This document shows, in pieces, positions 39,450-60,906 of a DNA stretch of 64,000 nucleotides. Source of the DNA: Planctomycetaceae bacterium (GTDB lineage: Bacteria > Planctomycetota > Planctomycetia > Pirellulales > Pirellulaceae); NCBI GenBank assembly GCA_012729315.1, contig JAAYDI010000001.1, positions 1 to 64,000 of the forward strand. Direction: 5' to 3'. The notes beneath the pieces are model-generated. The model searched no databases and had not been told where the DNA came from. It saw only the letters and a list, made by a program, of their open reading frames with translations. The translations under genes and the position numbers were made by a program. The stretch's first letter is position 1, and each line of letters opens with the position of its first letter.

Positions 39450-40235
39450 ATGGAATCACCAATCAAGTCCACCGCAGCGCTGCGGCGTCACCTGCTGTGT
39501 CTGGCAGCGGTCGGGGCGGCTTGCCTGAGCGGCGGCTGCTGCGGCATGCTGACCAGCGTGCGCTACGCCGCTCCCGCATCGTCGCCCGGTCCCGGGGCCG
39601 ACATGGCCTGCGCGGTCGACGACGGCTGCGTCATTCCGCCCAAAGGGTACTGCGGCGCGGACGATTGTCCACGGTTGATCAACTGGCCTGCCGGGCGGTG
39701 GACCAGATGTCTGGGGCCCTTGTTCCACGGTCGCAAGATCCACGGTCCCATGTTCCACGGTCGCGGCGACGGCGGACCGCCCCCGATGGACGAGGCGGAA
39801 CTCTACCCGCCACATTCGCGTTTCCACCCGGTTCCGACCGCCCCGGTATTTGCGCAGCGGCCTGACTATGAACCGCCTCAACGCATGCTGGCTCCAGTGC
39901 CCGCTTCTCCGCGGTCAGCCCCCCAGGCACAGCCCCCTGCCCCAGACACCAAGGCTCCACATACCAAGGCTCCTCGGATCAAGCTGTTGCCTGCCCGCGT
40001 CCTGCCCAGGTCAGAACGGGGCCCGACTCCCGCCCAACAGATGCCCAAAGACACAGTGCCCGACAATACAGTGCCCGACAACACAGTGCCCGAACGGGTT
40101 TTGCCCAACGCAGTGCCCGAACGGATTCTTCCTGAACGGATTCTACCCAGCCCGAAGCCGGCAGACACTACTAGCCAAACAACCGGCCAGCCTACCGACC
40201 GGACGCCCACTTCCGTACTGGTATGGAAGCGCTGA
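39450..40235 (+). CDS. proline-rich lipoprotein with VP repeats
   Basis: 261 aa. A positively charged start, hydrophobic LLCLAAVGAACLS and GGC form a plausible lipobox, so it is probably anchored in a membrane by a lipidated Cys. The middle contains Cys-rich ADMACAVDDGCVIPPKGYCG and ADDCPRL, then GPLFHGRKIHGPMFHGRG. The C-terminal third repeats DNTVP and PERILP units. The family is unrecognised; low-complexity surface lipoproteins of this build are common in planctomycetes. Its start is after a poor ribosome site, so the exact Met is uncertain. Confidence 0.6.
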   Translation: MESPIKSTAALRRHLLCLAAVGAACLSGGCCGMLTSVRYAAPASSPGPGADMACAVDDGCVIPPKGYCGADDCPRLINWPAGRWTRCLGPLFHGRKIHGPMFHGRGDGGPPPMDEAELYPPHSRFHPVPTAPVFAQRPDYEPPQRMLAPVPASPRSAPQAQPPAPDTKAPHTKAPRIKLLPARVLPRSERGPTPAQQMPKDTVPDNTVPDNTVPERVLPNAVPERILPERILPSPKPADTTSQTTGQPTDRTPTSVLVWKR

Positions 40236-40292: not shown

Positions 40293-40363
40293 GCGGATGT
40301 TGGGGAATCTGAAGCGCCGGGCGGGGATGCCTGGCGGCGAACGTGCACGGGGAGATGCGGCAC

Positions 40364-41140
40364 ATGGCAGACAGTTCGATGGCGATCGTCACGGGTGCCT
40401 CGCGTGGTATCGGCCGCGCGGTGGCCGTAGCCCTGGGCCGCGCCGGTTTTGCGGTAGTGGTGAACTACGTCCGCCACGCGGAGGCGGCCGACGATGTGGT
40501 CGCGCAGATTTGTCAGGAGGGCGGCCGCGCCGTGGCGGTGGCCGCGTCGGTGGCGGATGCCGACCAGCGCCGCGAGTTGCTGGACCGTGCGCAGCAGGCA
40601 TTTGGGGATCTGCAGGTGCTCGTGAACAACGCGGGGATTACTTCGCCGGGACGGCTGGACATCCTGGACGCGACCGAGCACAACTGGGACATCGTCTTCG
40701 ACACGAATCTCAAAGGCCCGTTCTTCCTGACCCAGCAGGCCGCCCACTGCATGCTCAACGCGCGGCGCGCCGGGCGGCTGGCGCGCGGCGTGATCGTCAA
40801 TGTCTCGTCGATATCGGCCTTTGCCGTGTCGACCAACCGCGCCGATTACTGCCTGACCAAGGCCGCGCTGCGGATGATGACTCAGTTGTTTGCCGTGCGG
40901 CTGGCCGACGAGGGCATCAACGTCTACGAGGTCTGTCCCGGCATCGTCGCTACCGACATGACTGCGCCGGTGAAGGACAAGTACGATCGACTCATCGCGG
41001 ACGGCCTGACGCCGATCCGGCGCTGGGGCCAACCGGAGGACGTGGCGGCGGCCGTGGTCAGCCTGGCGCGGGGCGACTTCCCGTTCAGCACGGGCGATTG
41101 CATCCACGTGGACGGTGGTTTTCACATCCAGCGACTGTGA
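40364..41140 (+). CDS. 3-oxoacyl reductase-like SDR
   Basis: 258 aa. MAIVTGASRGIGRAVAVALG binds NAD(P); LVNNAGITSPGR, VNVSSISAFAVSTNRADYCL and TKAALRMMTQL hold the NNAG, Ser, Tyr and Lys motifs. The C-terminus VCPGIVATDMTAP and GDCIHVDGGFHIQRL is typical. It may be a FabG paralog or a sugar or steroid dehydrogenase; no acyl-ACP gene is adjacent. ATG at 40364 has GGGGAG about 10 nt upstream; a nearby GTG (40343) is less likely. A string of hairpins follows its stop. Confidence 0.88.
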   Translation: MADSSMAIVTGASRGIGRAVAVALGRAGFAVVVNYVRHAEAADDVVAQICQEGGRAVAVAASVADADQRRELLDRAQQAFGDLQVLVNNAGITSPGRLDILDATEHNWDIVFDTNLKGPFFLTQQAAHCMLNARRAGRLARGVIVNVSSISAFAVSTNRADYCLTKAALRMMTQLFAVRLADEGINVYEVCPGIVATDMTAPVKDKYDRLIADGLTPIRRWGQPEDVAAAVVSLARGDFPFSTGDCIHVDGGFHIQRL

Positions 41141-41162
41141 GGGCCAAGAAAGAAAAAGAGAC

Positions 41163-41188
41163 GGAGCTCGTGGGGGGGAACGAACTCC
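41163..41188 (+). terminator. weak hairpin after SDR gene
   Basis: GGAGCTCG and CGAACTCC pair at 7 of 8 positions around a G-rich loop. It sits about 20 nt after the SDR stop and could help end its transcript. Low confidence. Confidence 0.35.
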
Positions 41189-41204
41189 GCCTCGTGTTCC
41201 CTGG

Positions 41205-41234
41205 GCACCGGAGTGGCCGAAGCCACTCCGGTGC
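41205..41234 (-). terminator. 13-bp hairpin with UUCG loop
   Basis: On the minus strand GCACCGGAGTGGC, loop TTCG, GCCACTCCGGTGC: a perfect 13-bp stem closed by C(UUCG)G, the most stable tetraloop class. One G.U wobble and two more pairs extend it outward. It begins 6 nt after the stop of the small frame downstream of the MurE-like gene. No U-tract follows, so it could end the MurE-like transcript or be part of a structured RNA. Confidence 0.7.
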
Positions 41235-41240
41235 TCAGCA

Positions 41241-41492
41241 CTAAGTCCCGTCGTGAAGCACTTGCTGAGGCGATTGACCCAGAAATCGCCTGATCAGCAA
41301 GTATGTCGCTCCAACCCAGGAGGGAGGGTTGCATCGGCTTCCCGCAAAGCCAACACGGACGACGAGACTTTCAATGGTTTGAGGGTGCAGGTAATAACCG
41401 CAACGTGCAGCGAGCACAAGGGCGATTTTTCGAGTTATCGTTGGTTGATTCATCACGGACGCTGGTCTCCTCGGCGCGGCGCTCAGTTCCAT
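41241..41492 (-). CDS. small frame overlapping the MurE-like gene's stop (candidate)
   Basis: 83 aa if it starts at the ATG that overlaps the MurE-like stop by 10 nt, or 70 aa from the ATG at 41453 (MNQPTITRKIALVLAARCGY). Codons have clearly more A/T in third positions than neighbours. Residues include YLHPQTIESLVVRVG and YLLIRRFLGQSPQQV. No family is recognised. Against it: the same DNA folds into strong hairpins (41261-41301, 41312-41331, 41336-41351), which favours a non-coding RNA. Low confidence for either reading. Confidence 0.3.
   Translation of the reverse strand: MELSAAPRRPASVMNQPTITRKIALVLAARCGYYLHPQTIESLVVRVGFAGSRCNPPSWVGATYLLIRRFLGQSPQQVLHDGT
41261..41351. ncRNA. run of hairpins, possible structured RNA
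   Basis: CTTGCTGA+GGCGATT pairs with AATCGCC+TCAGCAAG (41261-41301, 15 pairs with a 3-nt bulge and an 8-nt loop). CAACCC pairs with GGGTTG around AGGAGGGA (41312-41331). GGCTT pairs with AAGCC around CCCGCA (41336-41351). GC content is lower than in flanking genes. Orientation is not determined. It may extend to about 41480. No known RNA family was recognised. Confidence 0.4.
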
Positions 41493-43015
41493 TCGGGGCC
41501 CAGTCGGAACGGCAGCGTGACGGTGCTCTCCCGATCGACCAGCTTCGGCTGCGTGCCGTAGAGCCAGCGGCAGGCGACTTCCCGGTCGTCGAAATGCACT
41601 TCGCGCGAGCCGAGCGTCTGAAACAGCTCATCCCCTTTACCCGTGATAATCACCGTATCGCCGGGCTGGGCTTCGCTCAGCGCCCAGTGGATGGCCTTCT
41701 GGCGGTCGGGGATGATGTGCGCCTTTGCCGGGTTCCGGAATCCGTCCAGGATATCGTGTGCGATCTGCAGCGGCGGCTCGTGCCCCGGGTTGTTGCTGGT
41801 AATGATCCCGATGTCGGCACCCCGCTCCGCCACCCGCCCGATCGCTGCGCGCTGTTCCATGTCCTGCCAGTGCGCTGCACCATACACGCAGATGACGCGT
41901 TTGGTCGTGACCTGCCGGATTGCGTGCAGGCTCAGCGCCAGTGCGCTGGGCGTCTGGGCATGGTCGACAAAGACGCTGAAGTCCTGGCCGCATTCGAGTC
42001 GTTCCAGGCGGCCCGGCACGTATTCGAGCGTCTCGATCCCACGCACGATCGTTGTCAGGTCCAGTCCCATCACAAGTCCTACAGCGGCGGCAGAGAGGCA
42101 GCAGTACACGAACTGATCGCCAATGGTGCGGGTGCGCACCGGAACGCACTCCTGACCGGCCGTGAGCAGGAACGTCTGCTCGCTCACACACCGTTCCAGG
42201 ACCGTGGCCTGGACCTGCGCGAACGACCGCATGCCGACCGTAATGAGCGGCACGTGCAGCGACTCGAGCAGCGTGTGGCTGGCCACGTCATCGGCGTTGA
42301 TGACAGCGAACCCGCCCGGTTTCAGGTGATCGAACAGTCGCCGTTTGGCGCGCCGGTAGTTGTCCAGGTTCCCATGCAGATCCAGATGTTCGCGGCGCAT
42401 GTTGGTCAACACGGCGGCGTCCAGGGACACGCCCGACAGACGCCGCGTCGCCAGCGCATCGCTGGAGACTTCCACGACCCCGTGCGAGCAGCCGTTGGTG
42501 ACCATCTGGGCCAGCCAGCGTGCCAGGTCGTGTGACGGCGGGGTGGCCGTCTGAGCCGCTGCCGTCGTCGCACCGTCGCTGTAACCGAGCGAACAGGTGA
42601 CCCCCACATTCTGCTGAGCCGCCCGCAGAATGGCCGTGATCAGCAGGGCCGTCGTCGTCTTGCCATGTGTCCCCGTGACACCCACCAGCCGCAAGGCCCG
42701 GTCGGGCTGCCCCGCCAGACGCTGGCAGATCTGGCCGTATGCCTCGCGCGTATCGGCCACCACGCAACAGGGAACCCGGACCGGCAGCAGGCGTTCCGAC
42801 ACCACCGCGATCGCTCCGCCGGCCACCGCCTCGTCTGCCTCGTCGTGCCCGTCACCGTCAGCATCCACGATCGCCACGTAGACGTCGCCTGGGCGACACT
42901 TGCGAGGATCGCTGCTACAGGACCGCACACGGATGTCGCTGGCCCCAATGAACCGGCCGTGTGGGAGAATGTCGCGCAGACACAGGGCATCTGCACAAGC
43001 CACAAGCTGCTGCAT
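41483..43015 (-). CDS. murE: MurE-like UDP-MurNAc-peptide ligase, divergent
   Basis: 510 aa. Start at 43015 (MQQLVACADALC) with AAGGAGG 8 nt upstream. ATP loop VTGTHGKTTT (Lys119), VVEVSSDALATRRL, TNMRREHLDLHG, carbamylated-lysine motif YRRAKRRLF (Lys224) and VFVDHAQTPSAL are present, the MurE order. Differences: the usual GCGGDRD stretch reads GAAHWQD, and the DNPR that binds meso-diaminopimelate reads NNPG (408-411); GKGHE reads GKGDE (459-463). It may add a different amino acid, or be a paralog of the true MurE. Confidence 0.8.
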   Translation of the reverse strand: MQQLVACADALCLRDILPHGRFIGASDIRVRSCSSDPRKCRPGDVYVAIVDADGDGHDEADEAVAGGAIAVVSERLLPVRVPCCVVADTREAYGQICQRLAGQPDRALRLVGVTGTHGKTTTALLITAILRAAQQNVGVTCSLGYSDGATTAAAQTATPPSHDLARWLAQMVTNGCSHGVVEVSSDALATRRLSGVSLDAAVLTNMRREHLDLHGNLDNYRRAKRRLFDHLKPGGFAVINADDVASHTLLESLHVPLITVGMRSFAQVQATVLERCVSEQTFLLTAGQECVPVRTRTIGDQFVYCCLSAAAVGLVMGLDLTTIVRGIETLEYVPGRLERLECGQDFSVFVDHAQTPSALALSLHAIRQVTTKRVICVYGAAHWQDMEQRAAIGRVAERGADIGIITSNNPGHEPPLQIAHDILDGFRNPAKAHIIPDRQKAIHWALSEAQPGDTVIITGKGDELFQTLGSREVHFDDREVACRWLYGTQPKLVDRESTVTLPFRLGPEWN

Positions 43016-43417
43016 CTCCTTGGCCTCCTTGCCTCGGAACGCCGCATGTCCGGCACCACGTTCGGTCGTCTGCACGTCCCCGGCATCCTGCCGGCCGCGA
43101 GACCACGGAAACGGTCCCGGTTGACGTGTTGTCATGGTTGGATCCAGATCCCAATCCATGCATTTGTCACGACGGATTGTGACGATTTCGCGAAAGGTGT
43201 CAAGGCAGGTTTTCGAGCCGGAGGTGCAGGAACGCACATTCTCGGGAGAGCGGTCTGGGGAATTCAGAAATTCAAGAATTCAAGAATTCGGAAATTCGGA
43301 AATTCGGAATTGGCCGTGTGGCCGTGTGGCCGTGTGGCCGTGCCACACTGGACCTGGTCCGGCTGCCGGGCCATAATGCCAGATAGTTTCCTTTGGGGCG
43401 CGTGGTGGGTGACTTGC
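43016..43417. other. 402-nt divergent region with two tandem arrays
   Basis: Between the MurE-like gene and the plus-strand HTH-EIIA gene, so it should carry both promoters. It contains the AATTC-based array and the GGCCGTGT array described separately. Readings upstream of each gene start are possible but lack ribosome sites or family similarity. No RNA gene seen. Confidence 0.6.
43261..43342. repeat. AATTC and GGCCGTGT tandem arrays
   Basis: 43261-43310 has AATTC repeated with AGAA, AAG, GGAA linkers, six copies in 50 nt. Directly after, GGCCGTGT repeats 3.9 times (43312-43342). The two arrays have opposite base composition and abut. Confidence 0.9.

Positions 43418-59281: not shown

Positions 59282-60906
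<1,625 letters not shown>

Follow-up and report, generated by a model that had tools for sequence, protein, structure and literature searches.

A candidate structured noncoding RNA of Planctomycetia with copies inside and outside the cell-wall gene cluster

Introduction

In a 64,000-nucleotide stretch of DNA from a Planctomycetaceae bacterium (contig JAAYDI010000001.1, positions 1 to 64,000; hereafter the window), the 342 nucleotides from 41141 to 41482 contain a string of hairpins that a first-pass annotation, made from the letters alone, proposed as an undescribed structured RNA in competition with a short reading frame. The questions raised by this locus are whether the hairpins form one RNA, on which strand it lies, how widely it occurs and what it might do. 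Bacterial structured RNAs of such complexity are, to our knowledge, rare, and several complex ones are central to cell physiology. The class in which this RNA is found is known for division without FtsZ and for unusual peptidoglycan pathways.

Results

Locus, strand and composition

The region 41141-41482 is the gap between the stop codons of two genes that converge on it. A FabG-like gene (40343..41140, plus strand; frame from the list of open reading frames, name from the first-pass annotation) ends at 41140, and a MurE-like gene (41483..43237, minus strand) with Mur_ligase_M and Mur_ligase_C domains is the upstream neighbour on the strand of the RNA. The hairpins named in the first-pass annotation (a UUCG hairpin, a long bulged hairpin and two smaller stem-loops) are all present, and their placement between the two genes is right, with the correction that the RNA lies on the minus strand and that its neighbours converge. 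A lower GC content was also recovered (0.53-0.60 in 150-nt windows). Similar dips occur nearby (0.587 at 40025-40174 and 0.507 at 43175-43324), so that composition by itself is weak evidence.

The folding energy was far below that of dinucleotide-shuffled sequences on the minus strand (z -8.6) and on the plus strand (z -5.0), with none of 100 shuffles folding as well in either case. The arms of the UUCG hairpin (41201-41217/41222-41238) enclose a loop that reads UUCG on the minus strand only. An RNA encoded on the plus strand was considered and rejected, because its fold is the weaker one and because the terminator and the promoter-like elements described below point to the minus strand. The hairpins thus make up one predicted minus-strand RNA, with a core from 41369 to 41193 followed by an intrinsic terminator that reaches to about 41148.

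Architecture of the RNA

The conserved core of 177 nt (41193..41369, minus strand) comprises P1 to P7 and was delimited by covariation and by the CM R1 model, which scored the window at 176.3 bits, the window being also part of the R1 training set. The closing stem P1 (5' arm 41360..41369, paired with 41253-41244; 3' arm 41244..41253) encloses a junction with the hairpin P2 (41331..41356, loop UUGCGGGA at 41347-41340), the hairpin P3 (41314..41329, loop UCCCUCCU at 41325-41318) and the stacked stems P4-P5-P6 (41255..41312), whose P6 loop is UCUGGGUC at 41283-41276. Within this stack P4 pairs 41312-41308 with 41259-41255, P5 pairs 41302-41294 with 41268-41260 and P6 pairs 41290-41284 with 41275-41269; the long bulged hairpin of the first reading corresponds to 41302-41260. 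Two elements come after the junction, the long GC-rich hairpin P7 with its UUCG loop (41201..41238) and the intrinsic terminator (41148..41193), a further stem-loop that had been left unnamed and that consists of a 14-pair stem (hairpin 41193-41158) and a U tract. The P3 loop (41318-41325) reads AGGAGGGA on the plus strand and UCCCUCCU on the minus strand, the latter being the complement of the Shine-Dalgarno-like AGGAGGGA.

Covariation was analyzed in alignment A1, produced by MAFFT without structural information from 36 of 37 sequences (L044, whose 3' part could not be aligned, was omitted). RNAalifold on A1 proposed 55 pairs, 48 of them with double-sided changes. The 60-pair structure used here is a hand-edited version of this fold; on A1, 94.1% of the cells were paired and 48 of the 60 pairs showed double-sided changes, with 297 double-change cells. 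The corresponding values were 83.0% of the cells, 28 pairs and 82 double-change cells in the shuffle control, and 36-44% of the cells paired with 42-63 double-change cells when the pairing partners were slid. Double-sided changes affected all pairs of P1 (10/10, with 98.6% of the cells paired, so that both of its arms covary), P2 (9/9), P5 (9/9) and P6 (7/7), 12 of 16 pairs in P7, one of five in P4 and none in P3. In the wider alignment A4 (89 sequences) all four P3 pairs and 59 of the 60 pairs in total were double-changed, values to be taken with caution because A4 was fitted to the structure. Covariation had been proposed as the test of the RNA and its result is strong; together with the lack of any Rfam 15 family at cut-off in the region, it bears out the candidate.

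The competing reading, a small protein under selection encoded by an 83-codon minus-strand frame with the hairpins incidental, has a practically negligible probability. The frame does exist (41492-41241) and its ATG overlaps the MurE stop codon, as had been noted, but in a relative of the same genus it stops after six codons and it is not conserved. Of 77 homologs, 34 keep the matching frame open through the first 126 nt of the core; when the core is taken in full, 21, 15 and 23 of them are open in the three frames, the first number being that of this frame, which indicates no preference in a count made without codon alignment.

Distribution among genomes

A DNA search of its own genome with the 342-nt query returned the region itself and its own hairpin palindrome, and a repeat or mobile element was rejected on this basis. 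The same search matched 37 of 60 genomes in a set of relatives that includes the genome of the window, with conservation across about 41185-41380. Stricter filters make the counts obtained with the models lower bounds: at least 54 of the 60 relatives, own genome included, matched CM R1; in a draw of 397 genomes from the class at least 197 matched CM R2, including families outside the order of the window; and at least 29 of 392 genomes drawn from the phylum had a match, all 29 in the same class. About 352 of these 392 genomes apparently belong to other classes, as the listed genomes suggest, and had no match. About half of the class draw also had no match, which could reflect divergence or absence under the stricter filters. 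Antisense partial matches of the models to the palindromic P7 region (62-97 nt, E 0.0002-0.0064; four and six cases) were left out.

Each genome among the listed matches carries one copy, except G024, with a second weak match, and G656, with two strong ones. The two high-scoring copies of G656 (C174:11038-11214 and C37:13950-14124) may reflect a duplication or a mixed bin, its contamination being listed as 4. In family f8, of the same order as the window, no match was found in the 13 listed genomes of the class draw; these genomes are small (3.0-4.5 Mb), and the RNA may have been lost or have diverged there.

A motif scan of titled genome records gave at least 117 stretches; of the 80 loci among the matches listed, 75 matched CM R1. 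The titles of the matching loci included Pirellulales, Pirellula, Blastopirellula marina DSM 3645, Thermoguttaceae, Gemmatales/Gemmataceae, Planctomicrobium, Anammoximicrobium, Planctomycetota and, once, plain "bacterium", and from such titles we infer that the carrier class is Planctomycetia. The five loci that failed the model, among the matches listed, bore Phycisphaerae, Clostridia, Aeromonas, Glycomyces and Kiloniellaceae titles.

Hairpin loops

The 77 loci comprise 76 distinct sequences, in which loop motifs were scored column by column in the alignment. These counts replace whole-sequence motif counts, which included loci selected by motif and in which UGGGUC could also come from P3; they are still biased upward, since some of the loci were found with the help of the model. 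On this basis UGGGUC is present in the P6 loop of all 76 sequences and UGCGGG in the P2 loop of 71. The anti-Shine-Dalgarno motif CCUCC occupies the P3 loop in 57 of the 76 and is lineage-specific: it is absent from P3 in 20 loci, namely all 15 of family f21, which is taken to be Planctomycetaceae, and L021, L077, L078, L081 and L089. All of these 20 loci keep UGGGUC in P6 and all except L103 keep UGCGGG in P2. The P3 loop carries UUCG in nine distinct sequences. An anti-Shine-Dalgarno loop that is not common to all members is unlikely to be the core activity of the RNA.

Kissing between GGGA of the P2 loop and UCCC of the P3 loop was rejected as a general feature, P2 being mostly unchanged where P3 changes. 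Binding of a CsrA-type protein through GGA in the loops was considered from the sequence as a possible activity, as was pairing of the loops with rRNA; a search for 16S rRNA in three genomes found none.

Gene neighbourhood

The flanks of the 77 loci (1.2 kb upstream, 0.6 kb downstream) were searched by tblastn, and neighbouring genes of representative loci were identified. The RNA stands between murF and mraY in 22 loci, after murF in 17, after murE in 21 and without a mur neighbour in 17, so that in 38 of the 77 it follows murF or murE with no mraY behind it. In total, no mraY was seen behind the RNA in 55 loci, four of which have less than 1.2 kb of downstream sequence. No consistent same-strand gene directly downstream, as would be expected of a cis-acting leader, was found among the 77 loci, and no single gene lies downstream of the unlinked copies, although four loci of one genus have the same one. 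The copy of Blastopirellula marina (L112) is of this unlinked kind. The 75 loci of the motif scan, which overlap the 77, were distributed among the matches listed as murF-RNA-mraY (8), murF (11), murE (26), none (25) and upstream contig edge (5), with a downstream contig edge in 4 of the 26 murE loci and in 6 of the 25 without neighbour. Locus L094 has the order murF-RNA-mraY followed by FtsW and a MurG-type glycosyltransferase. In 8 of 15 loci of family f21, about 6 nt separate the murF stop codon from the start of the RNA, a spacing that, together with the rarity of terminators before mraY described below, fits co-transcription and a cis role there.

The curated cut-off for MurF was passed in 7 of the 60 relatives and that for MraY likewise in 7, as compared with 9 and 10, respectively, of 14 control genomes that included archaea. 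Enzymes that look intact are thus rarer than the RNA, and scores below the cut-off may represent diverged enzymes. The murE-like genes often adjoin the RNA, whereas the MurF and MraY cut-offs were each passed in just these 7 relatives. In the genome of the window, none of three MurF matches exceeded the cut-off, and the two with listed places fall within the murE of the window.

The interval of the window between murE and the RNA contains a 41-nt stretch (41385..41425, minus strand) with 80% identity to a degenerate Mur-ligase-like gene located upstream of the RNA in L029. The blastn match, in a database of 77 sequences, had an E value of 1.8e-4 for L029 and of 0.026 for L036 and L018; at the protein level the similarity was not significant (71% over 14 amino acids, E 0.04) and unrelated frames scored alike. 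The identification of 41385-41425 as a murF remnant is suggestive.

Transcription signals

A terminator-like site was found 3' of the core in 38 of the 77 loci, against a mean of 11.3 in shuffled sequences. It was present in 35 of the 55 loci without mraY behind the RNA versus 3 of the 22 with mraY.

Upstream of unlinked copies, roughly between -50 and -135, elements of the form TTGACA...TAAT were observed. An exact pattern, TTGACA-N15-19-(TAAT|TATT|TATA) within 180 nt upstream, for which about 0.01 occurrences are expected per set, was found in 4 of the 17 unlinked loci, in 11 of 20 further loci, in 1 of 21 murE-linked loci and in none of 39 murF-linked loci. Nineteen of the 20 further loci lack a mur gene in the examined flanks and all 11 positives are among those 19; this gives 15 of 36 unlinked copies versus 1 of 60 linked ones. 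The comparison is partly post hoc, the exact pattern having been composed after inspection of sequences upstream of unlinked copies: among the four positives of the 17, L077 and L078 had been inspected before the pattern was set and L043 and L045 lay outside that view, and for every locus the final 90 nt upstream of the RNA had already been visible before the pattern test. The remaining unlinked copies have GTGACA...TATTTA, weaker elements or none that could be seen, and a looser sigma-70 scan of the 77 loci did not separate linked from unlinked groups.

In the window, the sigma-70 scan revealed no consensus promoter upstream of the RNA. A weak promoter-like sequence, TTGTGC-N17-TATTAC (41391..41419, minus strand), lies inside the possible murF remnant and is suggestive at most. 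The murF-like stretch would then have a second role as a weak promoter-like sequence, a possible reason for its having been kept.

Comparison with known RNA families

No Rfam 15 family reached its cut-off in the region 41141-41482, and 15 further loci with the RNA gave no match up to E 0.5. The sub-threshold matches in the region were those of 6C and Scr3202 to P7 plus the terminator and of two miRNA families to the P7 hairpin. The highest sub-threshold bit score was that of the actinobacterial 6C RNA (RF01066, 30.3 bits versus a gathering threshold of 47). This family is defined by two hairpins whose loops each contain at least six C. The two RNAs have in common two adjacent stable hairpins and, in the terminator of the window, one C-rich loop. 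However, the alignment covers only P7 and the terminator, P1-P6 having no counterpart, the C7 loop of this terminator is not common to the terminator hairpins examined in relatives, and P7 carries a UUCG loop in the window, its commonest loops in the 76 distinct sequences not being rich in C. The Streptomyces sRNA Scr3202 (RF02833, 30.2 bits versus 52) likewise aligns to P7 plus the terminator and leaves P1-P6 without counterpart. The sole match of the 64-kb window that reached a gathering threshold is a tRNA gene at 59282-59355 on the plus strand (61.1 bits).

Housekeeping RNAs resemble the RNA described here in being usually single-copy, complex in fold and widely conserved, but they occupy separate loci in the same genome. 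RNase P RNA (RF00010) has its sole match in the genome on contig C97 (281.9 bits) and SRP RNA (RF00169) on C11 (52.1 bits), neither model matching the region. The tmRNA model (RF00023) exceeds its cut-off on C96 (166.7 bits), with eight other matches below it and none of the nine on the contig of the window. The 6S model (RF00013) does not match the region. A sub-threshold 6S candidate with a rod-like 6S layout occurs at G000:C174:5427-5646 (minus strand, equivalent to L105:1501-1720, minus strand; 33.9 bits, E 7e-5, cut-off 46.4).

The portions of PMC5673643 consulted describe 6S RNA, citing Wehner et al., as absent from Pirellula staleyi and Rhodopirellula baltica, and list RNase P, SRP, tmRNA and three riboswitches, with no 6S, in the Rfam 12 annotation of Thermogutta terrifontis. 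The Rhodopirellula-1 motif is also a candidate RNA of Planctomycetes; by its table description, on which the comparison is based, it occurs in Proteobacteria too and is listed as cis-regulatory (Weinberg et al. 2010, PMC2864571). Full-text literature searches found no description of the present RNA among the matches listed. Its status as undescribed comes from these searches and Rfam 15, and the family appears to be categorically new, while its mode of action may prove to be a known one.

Discussion

The sequence comparisons make it probable that the locus encodes a free-standing, trans-acting structured noncoding RNA of the planctomycete class Planctomycetia. A more specific proposal is put forward tentatively: a ribonucleoprotein-type core RNA of the class, with a housekeeping-like conserved fold, would have been born between murF and mraY in the division and cell-wall operon, would have outlived the loss of its neighbours and would now be an autonomous gene driven by a strong promoter of its own, and the two invariant loops would bind one conserved partner. 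The order murF-RNA-mraY would be the ancestral one, and the RNA would have become its own transcription unit while the cell-wall cluster broke up. The scaffold formed by the P1 junction, P2, the stacked P4-P6 and P7 could display the two near-invariant loops, UUGCGGGA and WCUGGGUC, whose constancy points to a conserved partner; a protein or the translation apparatus would be a likelier partner than any one mRNA. Where P3 carries UCCCUCCU, pairing to Shine-Dalgarno sequences may be an added capacity.

That pairing would be central in an alternative in which the RNA is a trans-acting antisense sRNA: the P3 loop UCCCUCCU, as its main active part, would pair with the Shine-Dalgarno AGGAGGGA of mRNAs and block their translation, the rest being a stabilising scaffold. 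Small RNAs with C-rich loops do pair with Shine-Dalgarno sequences, for example in Staphylococcus, and share with this RNA a UCCCUCCU-type hairpin loop and a terminator. The frequency of CCUCC in P3 and the promoter-like elements and terminators, which suggest separate transcription, agree with this alternative. However, some members lack the C-rich loop, and such sRNAs do not have the large branched scaffold, supported by covariation and carrying two further invariant loops, that is seen here. The 20 loci without CCUCC keep the P6 motif in every case and the P2 motif in all but one, so that a function common to the family cannot rest on P3, and we regard this alternative as unlikely. Still less can be said for a cis-acting role in the mur/dcw operon, with the RNA as an intercistronic structure that would control or protect the murF-mraY mRNA as an attenuator, a processing site or a ligand-binding mraY leader. 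It is favoured by the 22 loci between murF and mraY, only three of which have a terminator-like site, and by the close spacing to murF in f21. It is made quite improbable by the 55 loci with no mraY seen behind the RNA (allowing for the four with short downstream sequence), the 17 without any mur gene, the unlinked copies that lack a single downstream gene outside one genus and the promoter-like elements that precede such copies.

A diverged version of one of the known housekeeping RNAs (6S, tmRNA, RNase P or SRP) would account for a usually single, structured and widely conserved RNA, and 6S in particular is given as absent from two relatives in the consulted part of PMC5673643, citing Wehner et al.; but RNase P, tmRNA and SRP RNAs exceed their cut-offs elsewhere in the same genome, where a 6S candidate below cut-off also exists, and the branched fold differs from the 6S rod, which leaves this explanation highly improbable. 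A catalytic RNA of the self-cleaving type, or the structured end of a mobile element, is a shade more improbable still. The compact branched fold and the invariant loops would suit either, but a ribozyme is disfavoured by the location of the invariant residues in hairpin loops and by the lack of any Rfam match, and a mobile end by the copy number, one in the genome of the window and usually one in others, and by the shared neighbourhoods.

As a probable trans-acting RNA of Planctomycetia, the RNA described here may record how an RNA embedded in an operon turned into an independent gene, and its alignments and models would allow genome annotation to detect the family. Being present in many families of the class, within the division and cell-wall cluster of some genomes and retained without that linkage in others, it would offer a genetic handle on unexplored planctomycete biology.
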